Below are positions 3,161 to 57,494 of a stretch of DNA of 64,000 nt, piece after piece. The translations under genes were made by a program, and so were the position numbers. Under the pieces are notes generated by a model. The model had not been told where the DNA came from, searched no databases, and saw only the letters and a list, made by a program, of their open reading frames with translations. Numbering within the stretch: the stretch's first letter is position 1; every line of letters starts with the position of its first letter. This stretch comes from Aotearoamyces nothofagi. Lineage: Eukaryota; Ascomycota; Leotiomycetes; Leotiales; Tympanidaceae. The DNA is taken from contig JADDTR010000017.1 of the NCBI GenBank assembly GCA_015345905.1, positions 248,001 to 312,000 of the forward strand. Direction: 5' to 3'.

Positions 3161-6068
3161 ATGGCTACTCCCCAAGATGGGTACCCGCCGCAGGGTTATC
3201 CGCAAGCTGATCCTTATGGGCAGCCACAATACAATGAGCAACCTCAATCGCCTGGTGTTGCCAACGCGACTTCGCCTCCTCCACAGGCTAGCGAACACCA
3301 CGATGGCAAGAAGAAGAAGAGAGGATATGCGGCTCAAGCTTATGACTTTGGTGCAGGTGCCAACTCTGCGTTAGGAGGTCAGCCACCTGCTGGAGGCGCC
3401 TTTGCGCCTGCTCAAGCTCAAGCTCCTGCATATGGAGGATACCAAGCTCAGCCAGAAGTGCAACCTGGGTATGGAACACCTCAGCCATATGGAGTTCAGA
3501 CTGCTGCGCCAGTATCTATAGCATCATCTTATGGCCAGTCTGCTGCAGTGGGCCTAGGCGGTTATCAACCACCCGATGCAGGATATCCTGGAGCTGGCGT
3601 ATCTGGTATTACTGGAGGAATGGGGCAGTTAGGACTCGGTGCCGGGCCGGCTTCAGCGCAACCGCAACAAGCTGCTGCTGCCAAAGCTACGCCGTTGAAT
3701 CAACTTTATCCAACAGATCTTCTGAATCAACCGTTCAACGTTGCGGAACTCGATTTACCTCCACCACCTATTATTCTGCCTCCAAATGTAAGTAATCTCT
3801 CGTTCTGGTTACATAGAGTCAGATGCTAATGCTTTATCACAGTCTAGCGTTACCCCATCGCCAGACTCCAATTGCCCTTCAAAATATGTCCGATCGACAT
3901 TGAATGCAGTTCCAACCACTCATTCGCTTCTCAAAAAATCGAAACTACCATTTGCGCTTGTTATACAACCATATACCTCGTTGCACGATGTGGATGACCC
4001 AGTACCTGTCGTTCAAGACCAGATCATCTCTCGGTGTCGGAGGTGCCGATCATACATCAATCCTTATGTTTCCTTCCTGGACCATGGCCACAGATGGCGA
4101 TGTAATATGTGTAACCTTACTAATGACGTACCGCAAGGATTTGACTGGGATGCTGCATCGCAAAAGAGTGTCGACCGATGGCAACGAGCTGAACTCAATA
4201 ACGCAGTTGTTGAATTCGTCGCACCCCAGGAGTATATGGTGCGGCCTCCACAGCCTCTCGTCTACTTGTTCCTCTTTGACGTTAGCTACGCTGCTGTTTC
4301 GAGCGGCCTCCTCGCGACCAGTGCCCGCACCATATTAGACAGTCTCAACCGGATACCTAACGCAGATAGGAGAACACGTGTTGGTTTCTTGGCTGTTGAC
4401 GCCAGTCTACATTATTTTGCAATTCCAAAGGATGGCGAGGAGAATGGGGAGACAAATATGCTTGTTGTGAGCGACCTTGACGAACCGTTTTTGCCCATTC
4501 CACAAGAGCTGTTGGTGCCATTATCGGAGTGCAGATTGAACGTCGAGTCCTTCCTTGTAAAGCTGCCAGAGATGTTCCAAAACAACCACACGACGAGCTC
4601 TTGCATGGGTTCGGCACTGCGCGCGGGTCACAAGCTCATTTCTCCTCTGGGTGGTAAGATTGTTGTCTTGACGGCATCCCTGCCAAATATTGGTTATGGT
4701 AAGTTGGAGATGCGGGAGGACAAGAAGTTACTGGGGACAGCAAAGGAAGGCTCCTTGCTACAGACAGCAAATAGCTTTTACAAGAGTTTTGCTGTCGAAT
4801 GCTCCAAGAACCAGGTTTCGATCGATATGTTCCTATTCTCTTCTCAATATCAGGATGTTGCTTCCCTCAGCAATCTTCCGAGGTACACTGGAGGCCAAAC
4901 GTATTTCTATCCTGGATGGAACGCTGGAAGGAGTGAAGATGCCATCAAATTTGCGACTGAGTTCAGCGACTATCTATCAGCGGAGATCGGACTCGAAGCG
5001 GTTCTTCGCGTCCGAGCTACAACCGGTCTTCGGATGAGCACCTTCTACGGCAACTTCTTCAATCGAAGTTCTGATCTTTGTGCTTTCCCCGCCTTTCCCC
5101 GTGACCAGAGCTACGTTGTTGAGGTTGCTCTCGATGAGAATTTGACGAAGAACTTCGTCTGCATGCAAACCGCCGTTCTTCATACGACTAGCAATGGCGA
5201 GCGAAGAATCAGAGTTATGACTCTATCTCTACCTACGACAACTAGCCTGGCAGACGTCTATGCTTCTGCCGATCAATGCGCGATTACAACATTCTACAGT
5301 CACAAGGCTGTTGAGCGAGCATTAAGCAGTGGTCTAGAGCCAGCACGCGATGCCCTCCAATCCAAGTTGATCGAATTACTACAGACTTTCAAGAAGGAAC
5401 TTGCTGGTGGCAATATGGGTGGTGGCGGCCTTCAGTTCCCTGCAAATCTACGTGGTCTGCCTGCTCTGTTCCTTGGTCTTATTAAGAACGTTGGACTTCG
5501 AAAGTCTGCTCAAATCCCATCGGATCTTCGGTCGGCTGCACTTTGCCAGCTTTCAACTCTGCCTCTGCCGCTTCTCATGCAGTATATCTACCCAAGACTT
5601 TACTCCTTACACGACATGCCTGACAACGTTGGCATTCCTGACATGGAGACTCGCCAGATCACTCTCCCACAACCATTGAACCTCTCTTCGGAACGTCTTG
5701 TCTCATATGGCCTCTACCTTATCGATGATGGGCAGACACAATTCTTATGGGTTGGCAGAGATACTGTGCCACAGTTGATCGAAGACGTCTTTGGCGTTGC
5801 TGACAGGACTCAATTGAAGGTTGGAAAGGCCACACTACCCGAACTCGAGAATGATTTCAACGAGAGGGTACGGGCTGTGTTCCAGAAGAGCCATGACTAC
5901 CGGGCGAGAGGCGTTGGTAGTATCATCGTTCCGCACTTGTACATTATCAAAGAGGACGGCGATCCAAGCCTGAAGCTGTGGGCGCAGACATTACTCATTG
6001 AGGATCGGGCAGATCAGGGGATGAGCTTCCAACAGTGGATGGGCACTTTACGAGAAAAGGTGAGCTGA
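3161..6068 (+). CDS. SEC24: COPII coat cargo-binding subunit Sec24
   Basis: Two exons, 3161-3787 and 3843-6068, with a 55-nt intron (GTAAGT...CACAG) give 950 residues, a normal Sec24 length. The first 200 residues are Pro/Gln/Gly/Tyr-rich, as usual for the disordered Sec24 N-terminus. A zinc-finger domain follows with C274-x2-C277 and C296-x2-C299. Then come the trunk (vWA-like, starting near [18 protein letters not shown]), beta-sandwich and helical regions, and a C-terminal gelsolin-like domain ([17 protein letters not shown]). With Sec23 it forms the inner COPII coat on ER exit sites and binds cargo sorting signals. ATG context is GCCATGG. Confidence 0.97.
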
Positions 6069-8870: not shown

Positions 8871-9927
8871 AACCACTTCTTACTCTGCTGCTTGATCAAT
8901 TGATTCTTCAGCGTCGCCCTCTTCTCTTCCTCAATCTTCTTCCGCAAGCTCCTTCTCAACCACTCTACGCTCCCTTTCCTGCCATCTCCCACGTTCGGCG
9001 CTGCTGTCCTTTACCCATCTCCCGTCCCTTCGCATTCATCCAGCCGAGAGCTCCAGTTCGGCATCCAGGTGAGCCAGCCAGCCAGCCAGCCACCCAGGCC
9101 CCCGCCGCCAACGACCCGCATCAACTGAACGGACGAGAAACAGAGCCCGCCAGCACCACCTGCCGGAACGCACGAGATCCCTCTGGAGGAGCACAGTTGA
9201 TGCTCGAGTGACGAAGACCGAGAGACGGGGAGAAAAGGGGAAAAAAAAAGGTACACATTGTCTTTTGCGACAGCTACAGGGCCGGCTTCTCTTGTCCCGC
9301 TCGACAATAGTACGCGCAGCTATTGTGGGGTTATTGGCCCTTTGGGCACCACCCGAGAAAGCATGGAGGTTGGAACATCTCTACCACAAAAACCCAAGAC
9401 TGATCTTTTTGTGAGCCGGAATAGAAAAAGACTTCCAGTCACCTCTTCGGCAACACCTCTGCTTGCGTGCCACTCCTCCGAAGCTACCCACAGCTGCGAC
9501 ATCATACGCCCGAGCGGCCAGATCAGAGCGGCCAGATCTTAGCGACTACGAGCTGCTTTCCTCACGGCTGCTACAGCTTCTGTCTCTCTGACGGCGAGAC
9601 AAGACACGATATATATCGGAGTGATCGAGAACAATTACGGCACGCTGCAGCTTACCACGTTCTGCTCGACCGCTCTGCGCGACCCGTAGCTGCATGCGTA
9701 GCTGCACATCCCCGTACGGAAGAACAAAGACAGCCAGCGCTTTCCATCAAAGGCTCTCGGCCGTCGACCAACCTCGTCGCCAGCGCTATTTTTGATCAGT
9801 CTTCACTTGCCAATTAACTCGGTACATGAATCTTCGAGGCCGGCGAACAAAAAGACAAAGTTCGCACGTCCAGCAACGACCTCTTCCACATCACCATTGA
9901 GATAGCCAAACCGAAACAGCGGCAAAG

Positions 9928-17219: not shown

Positions 17220-17375
17220 GCGGCGTTGGTCAAGTGGTTATGACGCCCGTTTCACAGGTCTCTTCGGCGGATTGCCCTCACCTATAGCTTGCTAAAGGGA
17301 AACGGGTTTATCTTTGCTGGGGGACAGCACTAGTGCGACTGCGGGAGGTCGCCGGTTCGAATCCGGCATGCTGCA
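17220..17375 (+). tRNA. tRNA-Val (CAC) with an 83-nt intron
   Basis: A full cloverleaf can be drawn. Acceptor stem: GCGGCGT (17220-17226) with ATGCTGC (17368-17374), two G-U pairs. D stem: GTC/GAC. Anticodon stem: CCCGT (17246-17250) with GCGGG (17341-17345). Variable loop: AGGTC. T stem: GCCGG/CCGGC around TTCGAAT. Discriminator: A17375. The anticodon loop is TTCACA plus T17340, anticodon CAC (17253-17255). The intron, 17257-17339, sits at the canonical position after base 37. Spliced length is 73 nt. Box A and box B (GGTTCGAATCC) are intact. Confidence 0.88.
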
Positions 17376-36455: not shown

Positions 36456-38167
36456 CTACAGCATGTATGTAAAGTATGGATTCTCCACATCTGTAAGATC
36501 TTTGAAAGCGAATTTATCTCTGTCTCCATCATTTAACTGCAATGCAGCTCGGCGGAGGTTCTCGCGCTTTAGAACAAAATACAACACGATGGAAGAGGCG
36601 ATTGTGATACAGTAGCTTGAGAACCATTAGCATGTACAATTTAAGAATCCAAGCTAGGAATTTCGCACCAGATGATGAGGCCTGTCCACAACTCTGGATA
36701 ATGGTGGACCTTGGTTTCAGACTTGATAAGCTGTGGTCCAACAATGTTTCCAACAGTATATGCGACGAATATAGTAGCTGCCATGAAACACTTTTTGGTC
36801 TGTCCTGCGACGTTTGACATGCCGATTGTAATAATCAGGCTAACGACTGCTCCGAAGAATCCAGTAATGGAATATCCAACAACTGGAGCTGCAGCATGAT
36901 AGGACCAGTCGCTCTTCCAGATGATTGCACATCCAGCAATAACTGGCAAGCAGCACAATATCAAAAGAATGATACGAATATTTGGAATCCGCGACGAGAG
37001 AAACCCCGTCAAAAGGATCATAATAAAGCAGATCCCCCCAAGTGGGAACTGGAACAAAATCGAATCGAGCGTTGACCAGCCAAATGTAGAGACGATAAGA
37101 GGGCCAAAGCCACTAACAGCGCCATTTACGGTATATGCAGAGGCCATCATAATTGCAATAAGCCAGATCTTAATGTCAAGGATAGACTCTTTTAGCTGAG
37201 AAATTTTGAATTTCTGGCAGCGTACGCCAGTCTGTCCACGTCTCAAACGCTCGACTGCCGCAACGCGTTCTTCAGCGGACAAAAACCACGCGGATGCTGG
37301 AGAACTTGGGATCGCAAAGCACCACAACCCAAATAGGAATGTCAGCACACCAGCGAAAAGGTAGATATACTGCCATCGTTTCAATGTACCTCCAGTGATT
37401 TGTGCAAAGCCATAGTTCAAGGCGCCACCAATAATTGTAAACAGTCCGGTGGAGGAAAACCACCAGCTTTGACGAAGTGATTGCTCTTTTTGAGTATAAT
37501 ATCCACTGACAATGCACATGAATCCAGTGGGTATAATGCTCTCGACAAAGCCCAAGAAGAAGCGTTGAATGAACAGTCCTTGCCAAGTTGTGACCGCTGC
37601 CGTAAGCATACAGACTGCGGACCAGACAATGACAACCCCACCCAATATTCTGCCCAATTCGAAGCGTTGAAGCGCAAAAGTCATGGGATACAGTCCGACA
37701 AGCATTCCAAAGTAGAATATAGATGTCGCCCAGCTCAATCGACTTGTGTCCGTAGTAGCAGGAGTGACAGACTTGTTCACAACGCTGAGCTTGAGGTCGG
37801 TTGTCATACCGAAGAGAGCTGCAGAACCAAGAATCGCCTAGACAAGTCAGCACAAGCTTCATAGGGAGATGGAACAACAAACCTTGTCATAGTACACAAA
37901 GCCATATCCCACGATCATGGCAGGTATCAAGAAGCGATCAATCTTTCGAATGACTCGAGCTTCTACAACCGGGTCAATCGCGTGAGCATGTTCGCCAACT
38001 ATCGCCATGCCGACATCTTGGTCTGCAAGCTCAATTGAATTGGCTTCAAGGTCATTTTTCGGTATGATAGGTACAGGGCCCTTTTCATTTGCGCCTTGAG
38101 GTTCATTGAGTGCTTCTAGATTGCCATTTTTGGCATCATAAGCTGATGTTACCCCGCTGGTCGACAT
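36456..38167 (-). CDS. MFS transporter of the Dal5/allantoate-permease family under TPP riboswitch control
   Basis: Exons 38167-37883, 37837-36669 and 36615-36456 give 537 residues. The hydrophilic N-terminus ends RKIDRFLIPAMIVGYGFVYYDK, the classic start of anion:cation symporters. About 12 membrane segments follow, and the C-terminus reads FKDLTDVENPYFTYML, close to the D-x-T-D-x-E-N-x-x-F-x-Y end of this family. The second intron uses donor GTGCGA. A TPP riboswitch in its leader implies repression by thiamine, so the cargo is probably thiamine, a thiamine precursor or a related organic anion, as with yeast Thi73-type Dal5-family carriers. The cargo is inference. Confidence 0.92.
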
Positions 38168-38174
38168 AAATCTG

Positions 38175-38357
38175 CTGCATAATCAGCATGTTAGTTCTCC
38201 AGTGAGGAAAGAAGCATGATCCTTTCGCTGGTATTATCCAGATCAAGTTCAACCGTATGATCTCAGACCAATGCAACGTCAAGCCCATTTTAGTGTCGAG
38301 GAGATACTGTTGAAAAGGCTTGTACGAGCATTGACCACCGGTTCATTGTGCATTTAC
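38175..38357 (-). other. Candidate 5' UTR intron enclosing the riboswitch
   Basis: A donor GTAAATG starts at 38357, six nucleotides upstream of the aptamer's first stem. A branch-like CTAAC lies about 20 nt before the acceptor ATTATGCAG at 38175. The next three bases repeat CAG, so 38172 is an alternative acceptor. The intron would be about 183 nt. Alternative donors inside the aptamer are GTACAAG (38325, in P3) and GTATCT (38307). Several ATGs lie inside and would act as uORFs if the intron were retained. The ATG of the transporter is eight bases after 38175. Confidence 0.55.
38214..38351 (-). promoter_or_regulatory. Thiamine pyrophosphate (TPP/THI-box) riboswitch
   Basis: The minus strand reads CTGAGATCATACGGTTGAAC, then TTGATCTGGATAATACCAG, then CGAAAGGATCATGC (38266-38214), which is the fungal TPP aptamer core. 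CTGAGA and the P5 hairpin CTGG-ATAATA-CCAG are exact. P2 pairs AACCG (38343-38339) with CGGTT. P3 pairs CAATGC with GCATTG and, further out, CAAGCC with GGCTTG around a long loop, the usual fungal expansion. P1 pairs ATGA with TCAT and GC with GC. It lies in the leader of the MFS transporter. In fungi such aptamers control alternative splicing of the 5' UTR. Confidence 0.95.
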
Positions 38358-39091
38358 GGTACCTCTATGATCGCCAGATAATCCTCTGCTATTGGAATAC
38401 ATGTTCCTTTTATAAAGAATCATACGCTGGAGGTGTGCTGACGCTGTTGGTTGATTAATTCAGATATGCGCGATCAAGATTGAAACTTCTGTTGTGTTTT
38501 GAAGGTGGAGGTCGTCGGCCGGCGAAATAAATTGCATCAAGATAACGCCAAGGAAGAATATCGGAGATATCGTTCTCGAACGCCACTGATCTATACACGA
38601 CAACTCAATTATCAAACACCATATTGTTGACCTCTATCAGTTTTATTGGCTAATAAATTTCATATTGTCATCATTGTTATCATCACATATATCGAATCTT
38701 CTTTACGTACATATCTTACATATCTTTGACACAATATCCGTGCCTACACTTTTCGTCTCGATTCCGCGCCTTCTGGCGATATCGGCATCCATCAATGAAT
38801 GCTCTTTCAAATATCCAATTTATCCGTTTTCGGTGATGGATGCGGAAATGGCGAAGACAAAGAAGTAAAGACGTCGTCGAATTTTGCAACAAAGGGAGGT
38901 TACGAATTCAAAGGCTTTGATATTTGCACTTCTCGAGCTCTTTGATTCAAATCTAAATTCAGTCCTGTAAGTACAGCTACAAATGCTGTAGGATTTCCTT
39001 TTCATATTCATCAAATCTTTCATACCATCATCTTTCCTACTAGAAACACCGTAAACACCATTTATTCATACCAATCAATCAATAATATAAA
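38358..39091. other. Divergent intergenic region, MFS transporter / disordered protein
   Basis: Upstream DNA of the riboswitch gene and an AT-rich leader of the 1018-residue ORF. No other gene seen. Confidence 0.5.
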
Positions 39092-55770: not shown

Positions 55771-57494
55771 CTACAGAGGATAGATGAAATACATATTCTC
55801 CAGATCCGTCAGGTCTAGCAGTGCGATATCGACCGTCGCCTCGACCTCTCTGCCGTCGTTATCCAGCTGCCTGACTACTCCCTCGCCTTCGAGCCCCTTC
55901 TCTTGCTGTGCGCTAATCCACTCGCGCCGCTCCCTGTTCCGCCTCACCAGGATCCATCTGATGATGAGGAGGATGAGCGGGGTGCCGAACCAGCTAATGA
56001 CGATCTGGACGATCCAGGCTGGGTAGTAGCGGGGCTGGTCATGAGCCGACCAGATCTGCGGCGAGATGATGTTGGAGATGGCGTAGCCGAACATGAACAT
56101 GACGTTGCGGGTGAGTTTCTTGGTGTAGCCTGCGGCGGTCGACGTTGTCCAGCCGAGGGCGATGATGTAGGTGATGCCGAACGTGTTGCCGGCGAGCACC
56201 AGGCAGGCGAGGAGGCCGAGCTTGTTGGACCACGATAGGGCAACCATGCCGATACCGCCGGCGATGGCGGGAAGGCACCAGAAGGACGCCCAGTAGGCGT
56301 TGTAGCCTGGGAAGAGCCGGAGGAGGACGGCGGCCACGATGCATGCTACGACGGAGAAGCCGCCGCCGGCAACGCTGACGAGCGTGGACCCTAGGTTGGA
56401 GACGCCGAGGGAGACGTAGAGGAGGTTTTGTTGGTAGGCCAGATTGTTGGAGAGCATGAGTGTGAATGATTGGAGAGCGAAGAGCCAGGAAATGGGATCT
56501 TTGAGGGTCTCCATGAACTGATGCTTCTTGAAGGTCTTTTGCTCGATGGAACTCTGGCTCGCATCGTGGACGCGTTTGATGGCGTGGATTTTCTCTTCGA
56601 GGGTTAGGAAGTGAGCTTCAGCTGGGTTGTTAGGGTAGAAGAACCAGCAGAACACGGCGAGGATGAGGGTGATGCCGCCGGTGGTGATCATGAAGAATTT
56701 CCATGGGAGGATGGCGCTGTCGCTGAAGAGGAGTCCATAGGCTATGAAGCCGGCTGGGATTGGAGCACCCATACAGGTTGTCCAGAAGATTGGCTGGAGG
56801 TAGGCTTGCTCCCTGGGTTTGAAAAACATGCCGAGGGTGATTTCCATGGCGGGTACGAGGATTGATTCAATGGCTCCTAGGATAAATCGGAGAACAATGA
56901 GGCCACCGTAATTGCTGGCTGTGCAGTGGAGGAAGATGATTACAGCCCAGAGAAATATGGTTATCGAGACGAATCTGCCAAATGGTGCTCGTTGAAGGAT
57001 ATAATTTCCCGGCCATTGGGCCACAGCATATCCTGAATCGTCAGCTGTGATTCCAACCAAAGTCAGCAGTAATGATATTTACCGGTATAGAAAATGGTGT
57101 TCAAGTTGTTGTACTGTGTATCACCGATGTGTGTTTCTTCGAAAAGCCCAAGAATGGAGGCGTACGATAACGTAGCTTTGTCAATCTATCACAAGTCAAT
57201 CGCCGGTCTTCCCTTTGGAAATCACAGCCTTACAAATAGGACGAGATTGATAACTAGAATCAATAGTACAATATGTCTATAGAGCTTCCATTTCAACTTT
57301 CCCTCCTTTTCAGGAGTCAACGGTTCCACTGTATGCCCGAATTCCTCAACTAGCCGCAGTGTAACATCGGCATACTTCTCCTCGATGGTTAGGAGAGATC
57401 TGACGCGTGATGGCTTCACTTTCTCTGATGAACCATTTATAGAGTCATCTGCGGCTGGGACAGCTGCGATAGGAACCACCTTGTCTTCGCTCAT
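55771..57494 (-). CDS. MFS transporter, Dal5-type anion:cation symporter family
   Basis: Exons 57494-57234, 57185-57083 and 57032-55771 give 541 residues. After an 70-residue hydrophilic N-terminus come [18 protein letters not shown] and [16 protein letters not shown], then [21 protein letters not shown]. The centre has [24 protein letters not shown] and a loop with [17 protein letters not shown]. The C-terminus [14 protein letters not shown] is the family's D-x-T-D-x-E-N-x-x-F-x-Y end. The first true ATG is 57494; upstream in-frame codons include only GTG. Substrate unknown (nicotinate, allantoate, pantothenate and similar acids are carried by relatives). No riboswitch was seen in its leader. 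Confidence 0.93.

Follow-up and report, generated by a model that had tools for sequence, protein, structure and literature searches.

An apparently copied TPP riboswitch leader probably controls a Dal5-like transporter gene in Aotearoamyces nothofagi

We propose that a Dal5-like transporter of the fungus Aotearoamyces nothofagi is controlled by a Type I TPP riboswitch whose leader was copied from another gene. The window, by which we mean the whole 64,000-nt stretch of contig JADDTR010000017.1 analyzed here, carries upstream of the Dal5-like gene a TPP aptamer that is real and is predicted to bind TPP. Taken jointly, the splicing mechanism, the copying of the leader and the import of thiamine or its pyrimidine by the carrier make up a proposal that we consider probable. 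Within the literature searched, we claim the Dal5-type carrier as a new target family of fungal TPP riboswitches.

The initial annotation had read a full TPP aptamer on the minus strand, and RF00059 bears this out with a match to window positions 38294-38203 (-) that covers model positions 1-105 of 105 and scores 42.6 bits, with E 6.8e-7 when 801 bases are searched and E 5.1e-6 for the whole genome of 25.5 Mb in 55 contigs. That annotation had also named an RF00059 hit above threshold as the test of its claim; the match runs end to end, but the test formally failed because the score lies under the Rfam gathering cut-off of 54.3 bits, and a default scan of the 64-kb window did not list the aptamer. 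Genome-wide, RF00059 has four matches at E values up to 10 (52.2, 42.6, 39.2 and 35.7 bits), none of which reaches 54.3 bits, and the weakest lies upstream of the THI4 gene (Thi4 domain, PF01946). Fungal aptamers with a long P3 are often missed by RF00059 (PMC11683625), and the threshold is passed by only two of the three N. crassa TPP riboswitches (PMC5997356). Of the three further aptamers, one lies upstream of an NCS1 permease gene (L006), one upstream of the THI4 gene (L007) and one downstream of an APC permease gene (L005).

Exact copies of the core GATCTGGATAATACCAGCG number four in the genome and coincide with the four RF00059 matches; there are no sites with one or two mismatches and six with three, and the core read backwards as a control gave one. 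Both the CTGAGA pyrimidine-binding junction and the pyrophosphate-binding P4/P5 part are intact in the covariance-model alignment over positions 1-105, with the letters checked, and each element named earlier (P1, P2, P3, CTGAGA and P5) stands at the place given for it (Table 1). Folding of 38346-38216 gives a z-score of -2.18, but the unconstrained minimum differs from the aptamer fold. Three of the aptamers have ATGAACCGG as their P1/P2 strand (window 38346-38338, L006 from 4599 on and L007 near 4800), and a retained aptamer would therefore supply its own upstream ATG.

Table 1. Positions of the aptamer, the transporter gene and the proposed leader elements in the window
Feature	Position	Strand	Basis or remark
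TPP aptamer	38346-38216	(-)	helices placed by hand, letters checked; RF00059 match begins inside P3
P1 ATGA/TCAT	38346-38343/38219-38216	(-)	
P2 ACCG/CGGT	38342-38339/38255-38252	(-)	
P3 GGTCAATGC/GCATTGGTC	38336-38328/38274-38266	(-)	
P3 inner helix CAAGCC/GGCTTG	38322-38317/38285-38280	(-)	
CTGAGA	38266-38261	(-)	
P4	38247-38245/38224-38222	(-)	
P5 CTGG-ATAATA-CCAG	38241-38238/38231-38228	(-)	
Proposed distal donor S1, AGC/GTATGA	38425 (first intron base)	(-)	nearest GT[AG] upstream of uATG, -23
Proposed proximal donor S2, GAG/GTACCG	38362 (first intron base)	(-)	aligned with NCS1 and THI4 donors
40-nt block, uORF start (MYSNSRGLSGDHR) to proximal donor	38363..38402	(-)	in-register identity with NCS1 and THI4
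Branch site CTAAC	38194-38190	(-)	region conserved with NCS1
Acceptor GCAGCAG	intron end 38175 or 38172	(-)	sequence; just before ATG 38167
Block homologous to NCS1 leader (L006)	38117..38425	(-)	BLAST and shuffle tests; 38425-38404 aligns loosely
Dal5-like MFS transporter, 537 aa	exons 38167-37883, 37837-36669, 36615-36456	(-)	ORF intact

The reading of the gene as Dal5-like is supported by matches to PF07690 (MFS_1, 104.7 bits) and to TIGR00893 (2A0114, TC 2.A.1.14), the latter being its only NCBIfam match, at 148.1 bits and E 3.5e-43, which is below that model's own cut-off of 395. Among the 8000 candidates scored, 729 were homologues of the transporter, and the 120 listed are 69-80% identical to it, many of them named allantoate transport protein or permease. 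The nearest of these come from Leptodontidium, Phialocephala and Mollisiaceae (77-80%), which we take to be Leotiomycetes; the listed homologues of both the Dal5-like and the NCS1 proteins belong, where named, to filamentous ascomycetes. In an alignment with 14 of the 120 listed orthologues, the exon junctions are consistent with theirs, and the sequence is continuous across the third exon junction. In the present protein, 91 residues precede the motif Y[YW]DKAILGS, compared with 46-90 in the 111 of the 120 listed orthologues that carry the motif. Relatives of the transporter were found neither in the viral contig collection (53 pattern stretches) nor in the genome contig collection (24 pattern stretches), the P4/P5 core was not found in the viral contig collection, and no solved structure was found for the transporter by single sequence or by profile. 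A distant Dal5-like paralogue (26% identity) lies within the window at 55927-57033 (-).

By sequence, the aptamer sits within a 5'-UTR intron, as had been claimed, with candidate donors upstream and an acceptor just before ATG 38167; the branch site and the CAGCAG acceptor previously noted there are present as CTAAC and GCAGCAG. The earlier donor map is probably wrong, since comparison of the leaders suggests 38362 as the proximal donor and 38425 as the distal donor, with a uORF beginning at 38402 between them. From uATG to proximal donor, the distance is exactly 40 nt in all three leaders compared (Dal5-like, NCS1 and THI4), the equivalent block running from L006:4545 to GTAAAC at 4585 in NCS1 and from L007:4727 to GTATAT at 4767 in THI4. 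Without the ATG, the blocks are identical at 30/37 positions between Dal5-like and NCS1, at 20/37 between Dal5-like and THI4 and at 21/37 between NCS1 and THI4, values reached by 0, 29 and 20 of 20,000 shuffles, respectively. The Dal5-like and NCS1 blocks are copies and therefore do not count as independent cases. Only this in-register test was positive for THI4; when the 5' block was aligned locally to the THI4 leader, the scores were 12 and 15, which is background against a shuffle mean of about 14.5.

The blocks would encode the peptides MYSNSRGLSGDHR (Dal5-like), MYSSSRGLSSDHI (NCS1) and MLSISMELSLEYQ (THI4), which are alike in the pattern M-x-S-x-S-x-x-L-S; between Dal5-like and NCS1, four of the seven changes fall at third positions. 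Because third-position changes are so many, a conserved uORF peptide is indistinguishable here from conserved RNA pairing. The 40-nt block was also considered as a coding exon of the transporter and rejected, as it is out of frame and meets a stop when joined to the acceptor. Going upstream from the uATG, the first GT[AG] is GTATGA at -23 (Dal5-like), GTACGA at -21 (NCS1) and GTACTA at -26 (THI4). Further ATGs occur within 200 nt on the 5' side of the uATG, at -135 and -21 (Dal5-like), -171 and -102 (NCS1) and -193 and -12 (THI4), and those at -21 (38423, Dal5-like) and -12 (THI4) fall between both donors in the uORF frame. Therefore, transcripts spliced from the distal donor and starting below the farther ATGs would meet the main ATG first. 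After splicing from the proximal donor, the uORFs would span 21 (Dal5-like), 21 (NCS1) and 38 (THI4) codons, out of the main-ORF frame. Splicing and uORFs, which the initial annotation had already supposed, are the likely means of control, and the predicted layout is that of Type I.

The riboswitch leader of the Dal5-like gene appears to be a copy of the leader of the genome's own NCS1 permease gene, joined near codon 17. The L006 permease, identified by PF02133 and TIGR00800, has its aptamer upstream, and its nearest listed homologue is from Claussenomyces (71%). A BLAST search with the 252-nt leader at 38403-38152 aligned query positions 1-243 to the NCS1 leader at 75% identity (E 2.8e-37) and matched the THI4 and APC loci over 54-55 nt only, in the 3' half of the aptamer. 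On the 5' side of the aptamer, an ungapped 44-nt alignment contains 37 identities (score 53, compared with a maximum of 29 in 2000 shuffles), and on its 3' side the score is 31 against a shuffle maximum of 30. Within the aptamers, 52 nt are identical from CTGAGA through GGATCATG. The P3 extension is the most diverged part, most of it differing, and P3 pairing is preserved between the two copies through a change from G-U to G-C. Past CAGCAG in the acceptor register, identity is 13/25, 18/30 and 10/35 nt in successive stretches, reached by 88, 7 and 6160 of 20,000 shuffles; the drop in the third stretch indicates that homology ends about 55 nt on, near 38117, at about codon 17. Free alignment past the acceptor was weak when local (26 of 2000 shuffles) and not significant when global with free ends (378 of 2000).

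Since the Dal5-like and NCS1 proteins belong to different superfamilies, the simplest reading is that the leader was copied together with the first codons. A DAxxGN likeness of the two N-termini was rejected as evidence of copying: it scores 28 against the genome's own NCS1 protein, and unrelated orthologues score equally high (up to 28 for Dal5-like and up to 30 for NCS1), D-x-EKG-like starts being present in both families. The NCS1 gene was presumably the source of the copied leader, because NCS1 permeases are a published TPP-riboswitch class (PMC5997356 and PMC5882874) and because the N-terminus of the Dal5-like protein is unusually long. Such a copied leader suggests how TPP switches may spread between genes.

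Complementarity between the 40-nt block and the P4/P5 strand is found in the Dal5-like leader (ATTATCTGG with CTGGATAAT; GATCA with TGATC) and in the others (ATTGTC in NCS1 and THI4; ATCAAG with CTTGAT in THI4). In folding of the 239-nt Dal5-like leader, the fold that pairs the exon with P4/P5 is the minimum, at -62.7 kcal/mol compared with -52.5 kcal/mol when the aptamer helices are imposed, and this gap of about 10 kcal/mol is, in the model, large for TPP to overcome at equilibrium. The corresponding values are -75.1 and -72.0 kcal/mol for the NCS1 leader (minimum -76.4) and -91.4 and -90.8 kcal/mol for the THI4 leader (minimum -93.4). Shuffled blocks matched the expected block-P4/P5 pairs in 1 of 200 cases for Dal5-like, 13 of 200 for NCS1 and 82 of 200 for THI4. 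Duplex energies were not significant (158, 322 and 79 of 1000 shuffles; 230, 256 and 69 of 2000), and the accessibility of the donors hardly changes between the folding states. For the Dal5-like leader, the probability of the alternative pairing was 0.88 when 30 nt preceded the uATG, 0.86 with 60 nt and 0.04 with 120 nt. Pairing of the block with P4/P5 is likely according to these models, in which the flank and shuffle controls are mixed. In N. crassa, pairing of P4/P5 with the region adjoining the proximal donor regulates NMT1 (PMC5882874).

The splice forms, P4/P5 pairing, TPP response, copying direction and substrate that we infer would fit together as follows. When TPP is low, the P4/P5 strand would pair with the 40-nt block beside S2 (38362), and S1 (38425) would be used. 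The uORF and the aptamer would then be removed with the intron, and ribosomes would meet ATG 38167 first, so that the Dal5-like carrier, along with the other riboswitch-linked permeases, could import thiamine or pyrimidine. When TPP is high, the aptamer would close, S2 would be used or the intron kept, and the uORF would remain; in the mRNA spliced from S2, it would run across the main ATG in a different frame and block initiation at 38167.

Alternatively, regulation may rest on retention of an intron with a single donor, transcription starting near 38385, TPP preventing use of the donor at 38362 (or 38357) and the retained aptamer supplying uORFs, for example through ATGAACCGG in P1/P2. A TATAAAA at 38414 could set the start downstream of 38402, leaving 38402 and 38425 untranscribed; moreover, ATGAACCGG is accompanied by short uORFs in the Dal5-like, NCS1 and THI4 copies, and a single obvious donor is described for some fungal TPP switches (PMC5997356). 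However, there is no TATA[AT]A within 200 nt upstream of the NCS1 uATG, and that of THI4 lies 182 nt upstream; therefore, the 40-nt block should be transcribed in those genes. Conservation of the block in register among the three leaders likewise argues against retention, which we regard as unlikely, though worth keeping in view. The donors of the initial annotation, with 38357 as the main one and 38325 and 38307 inside P3 as TPP-dependent alternatives, are GT dinucleotides in fair donor contexts, but the homologous leaders place the proximal donor at 38362, and the donors in P3 fall in the extension most diverged from NCS1, where their use would cut the aptamer. They look incidental, and we find this scheme very improbable.

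It is also conceivable that the aptamer was duplicated with the leader and has since decayed or stands idle, so that the Dal5-like gene is no longer controlled by TPP. The literature searched reports no Dal5-type target, and the P3 extension is mostly unlike that of the NCS1 copy, as such decay would have it; yet P3 length and sequence are variable among fungi (PMC5882874), the 52-nt core is identical, P3 pairing is preserved, and the acceptor and the 537-aa ORF are intact. An idle copy is improbable on this evidence.

The proposed Type I switch resembles that of N. crassa NMT1, for which PMC5882874 describes the layout of distal donor, uORF, proximal donor and aptamer: the aptamer lies in a 5'-UTR intron, two candidate donors flank a uORF, the sequence beside the proximal donor is partly complementary to P4/P5, and repression by TPP would be expected. 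It differs in its Dal5-like target, in the conservation of the block with other leaders of the genome and in that its splice forms are predicted. A Type II switch such as that of NCU01977, with an internal intron of 650-900 nt in the gene for a urea-type SSF transporter, was rejected, since the intron here is about 190-250 nt long, judged from sequence alone, and the protein belongs to the MFS. The TPP riboswitches of NCS1 "nucleoside transporters" (AN4526.2 class; PMC5997356 and PMC5882874) are related in that the whole leader is homologous to that of the genome's own NCS1 gene, but the protein here is of the MFS anion:cation symporter type (TIGR00893) and not of the NCS1 class (TIGR00800). 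Known TPP riboswitches before MFS genes are alike in placement and concern other MFS subfamilies, a distinction drawn by name. S. cerevisiae Thi73, a strongly thiamine-regulated member of the Dal5 family, is a suspected precursor carrier, but its control in yeast is ascribed to Pdc2 and Thi2 (PMC2329640), unlike the riboswitch proposed here.

Fungal targets given in PMC5882874, PMC5997356 and PMC11683625 include THI4, NMT1/THI5, DUR31/urea, NCS1/nucleoside, THI9/amino acid, MCP and sugar transporters, and PMC11683625 leaves 12 further targets unclassified. The terms "Dal5" and "THI73" are absent from the main text of PMC5882874, PMC5997356, PMC11683625 and PMC8786325, and the literature searched, which leaves out most subscription papers, yielded no fungal riboswitch linked to Dal5, THI73 or allantoate. 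If our proposal is true, a new transporter family joins the fungal TPP regulon, and a broadly conserved carrier of unassigned substrate gains a testable one. It would also provide clear sequence evidence for a eukaryotic riboswitch reaching new genes by copying of a whole leader.

The genome encodes THI4 (PF01946) and TMP synthase (PF02581, on contig C9). No THI5 candidates were found in it with PF09084 or PF13379, and a yeast THI5 protein gave no matches there up to an E value of 10 in a search run without a fungal positive control; the query itself matches the THI5 structure PDB 4h65 at 779 bits and PF09084 at 262 bits. The fungus is predicted to be a pyrimidine auxotroph, apparently lacking synthesis of this half of thiamine, although the assembly may be incomplete. 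With THI4 and TMP synthase present and THI5 undetected, pyrimidine or thiamine is therefore probably imported, and it is plausible, aided by the undetected THI5, that the Dal5-like carrier moves thiamine or a precursor. There are yeasts without THI5 that grow on the pyrimidine, and its import through the thiamine carriers has been suggested for them (PMC5997356). With THI5 predicted to be lost, the physiology should be simple to test.

More tentatively, we speculate that the leaders of TPP riboswitches in eukaryotes can be transferred between genes as cassettes, and that here the donors, the uORF, the aptamer and the acceptor passed as one unit from the NCS1 to the Dal5-like gene; this is quite possible, but we would not yet lean toward it. 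If it is true, a carrier of a different superfamily was brought into the thiamine regulon of a fungus that does not make thiamine's pyrimidine, and the Dal5-like orthologues, a group found widely among filamentous ascomycetes, include a carrier that takes up thiamine or this pyrimidine.

The aptamer downstream of the APC permease gene (PF13520, TIGR00907) has the top score of the genome, 52.2 bits (G000:C1, around 9216-9325, +), and starts 164 nt beyond that gene's stop codon. A donor lies directly before it (4711 of L005), and a branch-like site with an AG follows (4883), so it is placed as if in a 3'-UTR intron; alternatively, it may belong to another gene downstream. Splicing at such a 3'-UTR intron could tag the transcript for degradation. 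PMC4022394 reports a UGA4 homologue of Blastobotrys with a TPP candidate in its 5' region. Elsewhere in the window, a tRNA gene at 17220-17375 (+) carries an 85-nt insertion after the anticodon region, presumably an intron.
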